A stretch of DNA of 64,000 nucleotides from Streptomyces durmitorensis (GTDB lineage Bacteria; Actinomycetota; Actinomycetes; Streptomycetales; Streptomycetaceae): NCBI RefSeq assembly GCF_023498005.1, contig NZ_CP097289.1:4898001-4962000 (forward strand). The letters are read 5' to 3'. The translations under genes and the position numbers were made by a program. Shown one piece after another: positions 11,420-15,084 of the stretch. Position 1 is the stretch's first letter. Every line of letters starts with the position of its first letter. The notes beneath the pieces were generated by a model. That model was not told the DNA's origin, made no database searches, and saw only the letters and a list, made by a program, of their open reading frames with translations.

Positions 11420-12244
11420 TCAGGCCAGGAACCGCTCGAGCACCGCCGCGATGCCGTCGTCCTCGTTCGACGTCGTCACCTCGTCCGCCACCGTCTTGAG
11501 TTCCTCGTGGGCGTTGGCCATCGCCACGCCATGTGCCGCCCAGCCGAACATCGGGATGTCGTTGGGCATGTCCCCGAAGGCGATCGTGTCCGCGGCCTTC
11601 GCGCCCAGGCGGCGCGCCGCGAGCGAAAGCCCCGTCGCCTTGGAGAGGCCGAGGGGAAGCAGTTCGACGATGCCCTCGCCGGCCATCGTCACGCCGACCA
11701 GACCACCCGCCACCTGACGCGCCACCGAGGCCAGCTCGTCGTCGCTCAGGCCCGGGTGCTGGACGTACACCTTGTTCAGCGGAGCCGACCACAGCTCGGC
11801 GACATCGGTGAACGGGACGGCGGGCAGCGGGCCGTCCTGGACCGCGTACCCAGGACCCACGATCACCTCGCCGTCGAGACCGTCACGGCTCGCGGCCAGC
11901 GCCAGCGGGCCGATCTCCGCCTCTATCTTGGCCAGGGCGAGGCCCGCCAGCTGCCGGTCGAGCGTGACCGACGTGAGCAGCCGGTGCTCGCCCGCGTGGT
12001 AGACCTGCGCGCCCTGCCCGCACACCGCCAGGCCGTCATAGCCCAGGTCGTCGAGGATGTGCCGGGTCCACGGCACGGCACGGCCGGTGACGATGATGTG
12101 CGCGGCGCCCGTCGCGGTGGCCGCGGTGAGCGCGTCGCGCGTGCGCGCCGAGACCGTGTCGTCGGAGCGCAGGAGCGTTCCGTCGAGGTCGGTCGCGACG
12201 AGCTTGTACGGGAAGGACGGCGTGGCGGGAGCAGGGTGGCTCAC
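11420..12244 (-). CDS. HAD-superfamily (Cof-type) hydrolase
   Basis: 274 residues from a GTG that overlaps the serS stop by 4 bp (GTGA), so it is translationally coupled to serS. Motif I is [11 protein letters not shown], motif II VTGR, motif III includes a Lys (LGLSKATGL) and motif IV is [11 protein letters not shown], a complete HAD catalytic set. The C2-type cap domain lies between II and III. Cof-type family members act on phosphosugars, FMN or nucleotides; the link to serS may be only positional. Confidence 0.9.
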
Positions 12245-13530
12245 TTGTTGATGGGCTCCAAGATCTCTCGTCCCCCCAGGTACGGACGCAGCACCTCGGG
12301 CACCCACACGGAGCCGTCGGCCTGCTGGTGGTTCTCCAGGAGGGCGACGATCGTGCGCGGGACGGCGCAGAGCGTGCCGTTCAGCGTGGCGAGCGGCTGC
12401 GTCACCTTCTTGCCGTCGCTCTCGTCGCGCATCCGGATCGACAGGCGGCGCGACTGGAAGCTGTCGCAGTTCGACGCGGAGGTCAGCTCGCGGTACTTGC
12501 CCTGCGTCGGGATCCACGCCTCGCAGTCGAACTTCCGCGAAGCCGACGAGCCCAGGTCGCCCGTGGCCACGTCGATCACCTGGAACGGCAGACCGAGGCC
12601 GGTCAGCCACTGCTTCTCCCACTCCAGGAGCCGCTGGTGCTCGTTCTCCGCGTCCGCCGGGTCGACGTACGAGAACATCTCGACCTTGTCGAACTGGTGC
12701 ACGCGGAAGATGCCGCGAGTGTCCTTGCCGTACGTGCCGGCCTCACGGCGGAAGCAGGGCGAGAAGCCCGCGTACCGCAGGGGCAGCTTGTCGGCGTCGA
12801 TGATCTCGTCCATGTGGTAACCGGCGAGCGCGACCTCGGAGGTGCCGACCAGGTAGTAGTCGTCCTTCTCCAGGTGGTAGACGTTCTCGGCGGCCTGGCC
12901 GAGGAAGCCCGTGCCCTCCATGGCGCGCGGGCGGACCAGGGCGGGCGTCAGCATCGGGATGAACCCGGCCTCCGTCGCCTGCGCGATCGCCGCGTTCACC
13001 AGGGCCAGCTCGAGCAGTGCGCCGACACCCGTGAGGTAGTAGAAGCGCGATCCGGAGACCTTCGCGCCGCGCTCGACGTCGATGGCGCCGAGCATCTCGC
13101 CGAGCTCCAGGTGGTCCTTGGGCTCGAAGCCCTCGGCCGCGAAGTCGCGCGGGGTGCCGATCGTGTCGAGGACGACGAAGTCCTCCTCGCCGCCGACCGG
13201 GACGTCCGGGTGCACGAGGTTGCCCAGCTGGCCGAGGAGGCGCTTGGTCTCCTCATCCGCCTCGTCCTGGGCGGCGTTGGCCGCCTTGACGGCGGCGGAG
13301 AGCTCGCCGGCCTTCTTCAGGAGCTCGGCCTTCTCGTCACCCGAGGCCTTGGGGATGAGCTTGCCGAGCGCCTTCTGCTCGGAACGGAGCTCGTCGAAGC
13401 GGAGCCCGGACGACCTGCGCCGCTCGTCGGCGGAGAGCAGGAGGTCGACGAGCGCGACGTCCTCTCCACGGGCGCGCTGGGAGGCGCGAACACGGTCGGG
13501 GTCCTCACGGAGCAGGCGAAGGTCAATCAC
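12241..13530 (-). CDS. serS: seryl-tRNA synthetase
   Basis: 429 residues, the normal length for a bacterial class II SerRS. It starts with [10 protein letters not shown], typical of SerRS, followed by the long two-helix coiled coil (about residues 30-105) that recognises the tRNA-Ser variable arm. The class II motif 2 region reads [21 protein letters not shown] and motif 3 [20 protein letters not shown], with the ATP and seryl-adenylate residues present. The GTG start follows a GGTGGG ribosome site. It is first in a two-gene operon with the HAD protein. The 618-bp region upstream carries a cluster of DnaA-box-like sites. Confidence 0.98.
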
Positions 13531-13814
13531 CCCACCAGGCTACCGTCGAGCGGTTCCGGCTCACGACTCGATATTCCACTCTGGGGCGTTATGGTCGATT
13601 TGCCGGAATGGGAATTCCCGAAAGCGGCGCGACGGAATTGAGCCACCGGGCAGTCATCGGGCAGCCGTCACGCAGTCGCCGAGTACTGGCCACCGGCCGT
13701 TCCGGACCCGCAGGTTCCGGGTCAATGAAAAGGGTCCCATTCCCCGAAATGGGGCAGAGGGGACGTGCCCCCTTGACCCGATCCCCTTGTGAGGAGCGGG
13801 ACTTGAGGCCCCGG

Positions 13815-14125
13815 TTGTCCACAGGAATATCCCCTTCGGAAAAGTTATCCACAGGCTGTGCGAAAGATCTGTGGATGCCGGAAGAGATCGTTCCGAAAGC
13901 CGCATGCGCGACGAAGGATTCCCGTCCCAAACCACCCTCACACCCACTTTCGAGTGGAAATGGTTCGCTCCAAAGAGTTGATCAATGGAAAAGAGTGGAC
14001 GAGGGGTGACGTGCGCGACTGTGGACGGACTTGTGGGTTGTAGGCCGATTTGTCGACCATGTCGTGCTTCGTTGTCGACTTGTCCCCAGGTCGAGAAGCG
14101 TGCCTGTGGATAACTTTGTGGACAA
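13815..14125. promoter_or_regulatory. DnaA-box cluster between serS and pheA
   Basis: The 618-bp gap 13531-14148 has no convincing gene. It contains four exact TTRTCCACA matches: TTGTCCACA at 13815-13823 and TTATCCACA at 13845-13853 on the plus strand, and inverted TGTGGATAA at 14105-14113 and TGTGGACAA at 14117-14125. Degenerate copies lie between (13870-13878, 14020-14028, 14080-14088, and TTGTCGACN at 14050 and 14072). The region is AT-richer than its surroundings. A high-affinity DnaA-box cluster near oriC called D78 is known in S. coelicolor; I infer this may be its counterpart. Smaller marks in the gap are a GGGAATTCCC palindrome (13610-13619) and a CCCATT/AATGGG hairpin near 13736. Confidence 0.72.
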
Positions 14126-14148
14126 CGTAAATCAGCAGGTAAGACTGC

Positions 14149-15084
14149 TCAGAACCGGCCGTCCTGGCACTGCGTCAGCCAGTCCGACGCCGCAAGGAAC
14201 TCGCCATCGGTCGTCCCCGGCCGCAGCGGACGGACGTCATCGGTCGTCACCCCGGCCCGCGGGTACGACCCGAGGAAGCGCACCTGCGGGCAGATCCGCT
14301 TGAGGCCCATCAACGCCTCGCCCACGCGGCGGTCCGTGATGTGCCCCTCGGCGTCCACCGAGAAGCAGTAATTGCCGATGCGCTGGCCAGTGGGGCGCGA
14401 TTCGATCCGCATCAGGTTGACCCCACGCACCGCGAATTCCTGGAGCAGTTCGAGCAGGGCGCCCGGGTGGTCGTCGCCGAGCCAGATGACCACGGACGTC
14501 TTGTCCGCGCCGGTCGGTGCCGCGGGTCGGGCCGGGCGGCCGACCAGGACGAAGCGGGTCTCGGCGGTCGCCGCGTCGTGGATCTCGCTGACCAGGGGCT
14601 CAAGGCCGTACGTCGCCGCCGCGAACTCGCCCGCGAAGGCCGCGTCGAAGCGTCCCTCCTGGACGAGGCGCGCGCCGTCCGCGTTCGAGGCCGCCGACTC
14701 CCACAGGGCGTCCGGGAGGTTCGCGGCGAGCCAGTTGCGGACCTGGGGCTGGGCCACGGGGTGGCCGGTCACCGTCTTGATGTCCTTGAGCTGGGTGCCG
14801 GGCCGCACGAGCAGCGCGAAGGCGATCGGCAGGACGACCTCGCGGTAGATCATCAAGGGCTCGCCCTTGGCGAGCTCGTCGACGGTGGTCGTCACGCCGC
14901 CCTCGACCGAGTTCTCGATCGGCACGAGTGCCGCGGCCGCGTCGCCGTTACGGACCGCGTCCAGCGCCGCCGGCACGGACACCATCGGGACGAGCTCCCT
15001 GGTGGCCGCTTCCGGGAGCGTACGGAGGGCGGCTTCGGTGAAGGTGCCCTCGGGGCCGAGATAGGTGTAGCGCATCGCCGACAT
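14149..15084 (-). CDS. pheA: prephenate dehydratase
   Basis: 311 residues, monofunctional (no chorismate mutase domain). The catalytic domain starts YTYLGPEGTFTEAAL and has the conserved ENSVEGGV and, near residue 175, the catalytic TRF triad in AETRFVLVG. Residues from about 195 form an ACT regulatory domain with the ESRP motif (MRIESRPTG), which in this family binds phenylalanine for feedback inhibition. It converts prephenate to phenylpyruvate in phenylalanine biosynthesis. The end lies 24 bp from the outermost DnaA box of the serS/pheA gap. Confidence 0.97.
   Translation of the reverse strand: MSAMRYTYLGPEGTFTEAALRTLPEAATRELVPMVSVPAALDAVRNGDAAAALVPIENSVEGGVTTTVDELAKGEPLMIYREVVLPIAFALLVRPGTQLKDIKTVTGHPVAQPQVRNWLAANLPDALWESAASNADGARLVQEGRFDAAFAGEFAAATYGLEPLVSEIHDAATAETRFVLVGRPARPAAPTGADKTSVVIWLGDDHPGALLELLQEFAVRGVNLMRIESRPTGQRIGNYCFSVDAEGHITDRRVGEALMGLKRICPQVRFLGSYPRAGVTTDDVRPLRPGTTDGEFLAASDWLTQCQDGRF

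Follow-up and report, generated by a model that had tools for sequence, protein, structure and literature searches.

The closest described systems are (i) datA of Escherichia coli, which is IHF-dependent and stimulates ATP-DnaA hydrolysis, (ii) the oriC-proximal DnaA-box clusters of Bacillus subtilis, of which there are several, and (iii) a DnaA-box cluster of Streptomyces coelicolor, D78. D78 is presumably named for the cosmid carrying SCO3961 and SCO3962, and its position is probably the pheA–serS gap of S. coelicolor; it is reportedly the cluster treated in Smulczyk-Krawczyszyn et al. 2006, J Bacteriol 188:6184. Searches of the open-licence PMC literature listed nothing on point for D78, cluster phasing, or ScbR2 together with DnaA.

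The relevant passages of three reviews (PMC4585315, PMC5742627, PMC10950094) state that S. coelicolor DnaA-box clusters repress untimely initiation, draw the datA analogy for such clusters, and ascribe the repression of untimely initiation in B. subtilis to its oriC-proximal clusters (Okumura et al. 2012, as cited therein). One of these passages adds that the S. coelicolor clusters are close to oriC. In the sections of the papers that name them, SCO3962 is pheA (PMC6585502) and SCO3961 is serS (PMC4595836).

Here we describe a DnaA-box cluster between pheA and serS of Streptomyces durmitorensis, located in a window of 64 kb (the whole stretch of DNA that was analyzed). This stretch is probably the Streptomycetaceae form of the S. 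coelicolor cluster that restrains initiation and acts as an ordered DnaA complex; DnaA binding, looping, and the role in replication are predicted. Orthology with D78 is very likely. A family-wide module plan is shown, and the new result is the helical phasing of the spacers.

Box Cluster and Its Position Relative to oriC

The original prediction placed four exact TTRTCCACA boxes in an AT-rich stretch, with the plus-facing pair and the minus-facing pair at opposite ends and degenerate boxes in addition. A pattern search recovers the exact boxes (a, b, d, and e) at the same coordinates and in the same orientations (Table 1), and the GC content is 51–60% in the stretch vs 63–78% in the flanking genes (100-bp windows). 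The degenerate boxes are likewise present: the one single-mismatch box within the stretch is TTGTCCCCA (14080+), and TTGTCGACC (14050+), TTGTCGACT (14072+), and TGTGGATGC at 13870–13878, which reads GCATCCACA on the minus strand, can be read off the sequence. Since both flanking genes are encoded by the minus strand, the gap follows pheA and precedes serS. A sigma-70 scan of 13500–14200 found no promoter, host promoters being of a kind that may not fit the scan model.

Table 1. Features of the pheA–serS region (window coordinates)
Feature	Position	Strand	Remarks
pheA–serS intergenic gap, holds the element	13531..14148		618 bp
Box a, exact DnaA box TTGTCCACA	14117..14125	-	23 bp past the pheA stop codon
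Box b, exact DnaA box TTATCCACA	14105..14113	-	starts 12 bp after box a; in relatives, GTTATCCACAGG nearly invariant
Module M1, CTGGGGACAAGTCGACA	14073..14089	-	nearly invariant; opposite strand contains TTGTCCCCA (14080-14088 +) and overlaps TTGTCGACT (14072-14080 +)
Module M2, GTCGACAAATCG	14046..14057	-	nearly invariant; overlaps TTGTCGACC (14050-14058 +)
Segment matching by position the predicted ScbR2 site of S. coelicolor SCO3961	13985..14012	-	sequence not identical; placed via the distance to M2 in locus L296
Central conserved block, GATCAACTCTTTGGAGCGA and ATTTCCACTCGAAAGTGG	13943..13983	-	separated from M2 on one side and box d on the other by about ten helical turns each
Box c, degenerate (GCATCCACA)	13870..13878	-	core TCCACAG nearly invariant
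Box d, exact DnaA box TTATCCACA	13845..13853	+	within conserved CACAGCCTGTGGATAA (minus strand)
Box e, exact DnaA box TTGTCCACA	13815..13823	+	30 bp from box d
pheA, prephenate dehydratase	14149..15084	-	Pfam; gene accompanied by the cluster
serS, seryl-tRNA synthetase	12241..13530	-	Pfam; neighbor on the other side, non-adjacent in four box-keeping loci

The 64-kb window holds six exact boxes vs 0.15 expected from shuffles and 22 boxes with at most one mismatch vs 7.1 expected. Across the whole genome (9.86 Mb) there are 63 exact boxes, with 19 matches to a control pattern read backwards. The pheA–serS cluster is the densest exact-box group genome-wide and the sole group of four within 311 bp. 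The runner-up has three exact boxes in 211 bp (genome 4793456–4793666; L143, 1957–2167) and lies between DUF881 and rhomboid genes on the opposite side of oriC, approximately 30 kb away from it. A second small group in the window, at 2509–2575 and thus 11 kb from the main cluster, comprises two exact and two single-mismatch boxes; it is flanked by kptA and a MerR-type gene.

The gene dnaA was located by its DNA-binding domain and dnaN by Pfam. The array between them (genome 4823592–4824156) is taken as oriC on the basis of its position and boxes. It contains 12 single-mismatch boxes and 24 boxes with at most two mismatches, while no exact TTRTCCACA was found in it. Judged by match to consensus, the cluster is the better predicted DnaA target of the two. 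The M1 and M2 words are absent from the oriC array, and TTGTCCCCA is present there. The pheA–serS cluster starts 87.7 kb from this array and is thereby close to oriC, and it groups several DnaA boxes in non-coding DNA outside oriC, as a D78-type element does.

Two further readings of the stretch were set aside. As for a second origin, oriC lies between dnaA and dnaN, and the element is adjacent to neither, lying between pheA and serS. As for a coding function, the stretch is crossed by ORFs of 113 and 133 aa, but only as a mechanical overlap; spacer changes do not come in threes, and the interspecies differences in spacer length (10, 11, or 21 bases) argue against coding.

Conservation in Streptomycetaceae

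One of two conditions named as refuting the original prediction was a lack of box conservation between related species; conservation is found across Streptomyces and its family. All 80 relatives that bear names (Streptomyces in 78 titles, Actinacidiphila in one, and "Actinobacteria bacterium" in one) have two to four exact boxes in the pheA–serS gap. Over all sets, at least two exact boxes occur downstream of pheA, counted within 900 bp of the gene or up to serS, in 285 of 288 true pheA loci, a tally in which named and coded sets may share species and from which three distant pheA-like genes (L269, L270, and L364) are left out. Excluding 30 loci that were chosen by pattern, the figure is 255 of 258. 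No exact box was found up to 900 bp upstream of pheA in 290 loci. Box number in cluster-bearing loci ranges from 2 to 5. The genomes with the three distant genes (G097, G085, and G477, respectively) have only that pheA-like gene, the usual pheA seeming to be missing or unassembled. Two other genomes, G215 (L276) and G495 (L352), each have two close pheA copies, with one locus per genome fetched.

A strict pattern of two inverted boxes, TTATCCACA-N236..266-TGTGGATAA, which spans 254–284 bp, matches 238 of 394 family genomes, and its reversed control matches 0 of 394. The 30 loci returned by this pattern, all of genus code g14, are every one flanked by pheA and serS; having been picked by the box pattern itself, they show position rather than frequency. 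Another 30 genomes were opened (29 pattern failures and one match, G008): downstream of pheA, two or more exact boxes are present in 27, one exact box accompanied by four single-mismatch boxes in one, and no exact box in two. Genomes with no exact box found downstream of pheA are one each of genera g2 and g5. In the two cluster-lacking genomes, exact boxes are seen approximately 1 kb upstream of pheA (three in G004, C1:3402625–3402718; one in G001, C56:51988).

Outside the family, no exact box was found within 800 bp downstream of pheA in 25 fetched loci, two of which hold less than 50 bp there. The presence of boxes in nearly all loci of the family and their absence from these 25 loci suggest that the element belongs to Streptomycetaceae.

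Conservation extends beyond the exact boxes. An alignment of 81 gaps shows almost no variation in GTTATCCACAGG at box b, CTGGGGACAAGTCGACA of M1, GTCGACAAATCG of M2, TCCACAG in box c, and, together with box d, CACA-CCTGTGGATAA, whereas boxes a and e and the central block are more loosely conserved. The conservation of M1 and M2 is taken from these 81 gaps, which were not selected for them, and not from the alignment of 178 rows with an M1–M2 distance of 32. On the opposite strand, M1 and M2 resemble weak DnaA boxes (TTGTCCCCA, TTGTCGACT, and TTGTCGACC), to which DnaA would bind.

Helical Phasing and Alternative Readings

The distances between the parts change in a restricted manner. M2 was sought 18–80 bp after M1, and the M1–M2 distances in 261 loci are 29–34, 42–45, 53–55, 64, and 69–70 bp, the last comprising 22 g14 loci that look spurious. 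Because of this doubtful M2 match, g14 (Kitasatospora-like, the genus being a guess) was left out of the phasing test. M2–d distances peak at 203, 213, and 223 bp, with a few at 126–128, 191–193, 235–236, and 245–254 bp, and 163 bp in g14.

Length changes were counted by parsimony on the pheA tree for 206 of the 261 loci, rows lacking any module being dropped. A change is in phase when its size differs by no more than 2.6 bp from a multiple of 10.5 bp, for which the chance expectation is about one half. The M1–M2 start-to-start distance is 32 bp in 178 of the 206 loci and otherwise approximately one, two, or three helical turns more. The M1–M2 and M2–d spacers together show 43 changes of at least 4 bp (14 + 29), of which 41 are in phase (14 + 27); several of those counted, with sizes of 8, 13, and in one case 76 bp, lie at the edge of the 2.6-bp limit, and the events, drawn from a single gene tree, are not fully independent. 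Restricted to changes of 4–60 bp, 40 of 42 inside the cluster are in phase. The control gap from the pheA stop codon to M1 has 57 of 96 in phase (Fisher p = 5e-6 vs cluster) and the control Dyp–pheA gap 54 of 89 (p = 1e-5 vs cluster). Changes of 8–13 vs 14–18 bp divide 31:0 in the cluster, 21:15 from the pheA stop to M1, 10:11 in the Dyp–pheA gap, and 33:3 from box d to serS.

The spacing rule persists in a larger sample. With 231 loci (the 206 plus 25 of 30 fresh ones; the Dyp–pheA control belongs to the 206-locus run alone) and five parsimony costs, 86–91% of cluster spacer changes are in phase vs 55–65% from the pheA stop to M1, with p from 6e-6 to 0.004 against that gap and from 8e-6 to 0.02 against the d-to-serS segment. 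In the fresh sample of 30 genomes, treated by the same rules, 10 of 12 deviations are in phase and the off-phase two are +14 and +18, several deviations possibly coming from related species. The M1–d distances of g3 and g4 (217–218 and 207 vs the usual 235) are not whole turns.

Partial phasing is also seen between box d and the serS start (window 13531–13845), unlike in the two other gaps and unexpectedly for a control: 65 of 83 changes are in phase (p = 0.01 vs cluster). Phasing may therefore not stop at the DnaA boxes, or it may be coupled to the promoter of serS.

Were the stretch a passive sink of high-affinity DnaA boxes, box number would matter and geometry would not, and spacings would be free to drift. 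Passive titration fits the exact boxes, which beat the oriC boxes in match quality, and the variable box number; it also fits the S. coelicolor clusters as the passages of PMC4585315, PMC5742627, and PMC10950094 portray them, solely as repressing untimely initiation. However, the spacers change mostly by whole helical turns, and in the 81 gaps, which were not chosen for M1 and M2, these weak modules show about the same degree of conservation as the exact boxes. Box e is also held in place: in 230 loci with an exact box d, a box with at most one mismatch was found within 10–100 bp in 138, and in 137 of these it is 29–32 bp from d (an earlier search range of 26–35 bp gave 198 loci, all at 29–33). 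Titration alone needs no fixed spacings, yet the spacers change mostly by whole turns, which argues for an organized, phase-dependent DnaA complex over passive titration alone. At oriC, according to the relevant passage of PMC4285127, whole-turn changes in box spacing are tolerated and part-turn changes are not, so the spacing rule of the cluster fits a DnaA complex. We consider passive titration unlikely and operation through an ordered, phase-dependent complex fairly likely. What stands of the original prediction is the conserved, oriC-proximal, non-coding DnaA-box cluster; its plain "titration site" gives way before the whole-turn spacers.

Control of serS transcription by DnaA and other factors, which would tie tRNA charging to replication, is a less probable reading still. 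The stretch sits upstream of serS, box d keeps a partly phased distance to the start of that gene, and ScbR2 binds a probe from upstream of S. coelicolor serS (table of PMC4595836). Four loci (L164, L165, L170, and L176) nevertheless keep two or three exact boxes after pheA with no serS within about 1.5 kb, so the boxes there go with pheA and not with serS. In both annotated cases, the next long gene is convergent (a polysaccharide deacetylase in L164 and a diacylglycerol kinase in L176). Regulation of serS only is weakened by these loci, and in the scbR2 mutant, serS expression is 0.947-fold (PMC4595836, tabulated value).

In that table, SCO3961 appears as a ScbR2 target with gel-shift confirmation and a predicted site of 28 bp; as given there, the site is a computer prediction and the gel shift used a promoter probe (PMC4595836). 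Among 392 Streptomyces genomes, the S. coelicolor 28-bp SCO3961 site has one exact match (G226) and seven matches with one or two mismatches. G226 is taken as S. coelicolor or a near relative. Its gap has the same four boxes, and the 28-bp site lies between M2 and box d, 144–171 from the pheA stop codon. Since a sequence close to that of S. coelicolor occurs in only 8 of the 392 genomes, any ScbR2 link would be limited to that clade.

The presence of a structured RNA, transcribed as part of the 3′ end of pheA or of the serS leader, is highly improbable and was rejected, for although the single strand has a better fold than shuffled sequences (z = -4.5), the inverted boxes alone make much of the stem, Rfam gives no match up to E = 1, and the central hairpin rule holds in just 46 of 206 loci.

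Proposed Complex and Comparison with Known Systems

In the proposed ordered complex, exact boxes a, b, d, and e, which match the consensus better than any oriC box here, would for that reason be the first to be filled by DnaA, followed by the weak boxes of M1, M2, and c. The inverted box groups, approximately 260 bp apart, and the modules between them would occupy fixed helix faces, so that binding of DnaA, together with bending proteins, would shape the stretch into a single ordered loop or wrap. The complex would withdraw DnaA by holding it and possibly also by converting ATP-DnaA to ADP-DnaA as datA does, and this withdrawal would delay initiation at oriC, 88 kb away. Replication reaches the locus soon after oriC, so the doubling of the locus would strengthen the brake shortly after every initiation. 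A genuine spacing rule would make the Streptomyces element a geometry-dependent complex and more than a sink.

The predicted ScbR2 site inside the cluster is a possible link from antibiotic signaling to replication; such a site would tie the two together in antibiotic producers. A bolder version, which we regard as speculative and improbable, is a phase-locked DnaA machine in which the inverted exact boxes and weak boxes fold into a fixed loop that actively inactivates DnaA and in which, in the S. coelicolor clade, ScbR2 binds mid-loop so that antibiotic signals switch initiation directly. If this were true, the published ScbR2 target "serS" (0.947-fold) would really be a replication-control target.

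Compared with known systems, the cluster resembles E. coli datA as a non-coding DnaA-box cluster that, as datA does, would lower initiation, and datA is the model for the proposed mechanism; datA requires IHF and promotes ATP-DnaA hydrolysis, and the two are likened without sequence kinship. The B. subtilis clusters are similarly near oriC, and they repress untimely initiation as the cluster here is proposed to do, but there are several of them, whereas here there is one compact inverted array with phased spacers. Streptomyces oriC shares with the cluster its many DnaA boxes, the weak box TTGTCCCCA, and spacing rules of a like kind, while it is an array of 24 boxes (at most two mismatches), none exact in this genome, and is missing the M1/M2 words. 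S. coelicolor D78 likewise has boxes clustered outside but near oriC in Streptomyces, probably in the same pheA–serS gap; it belongs to another species, and for the element described here a family-wide module plan and helical phasing are shown.
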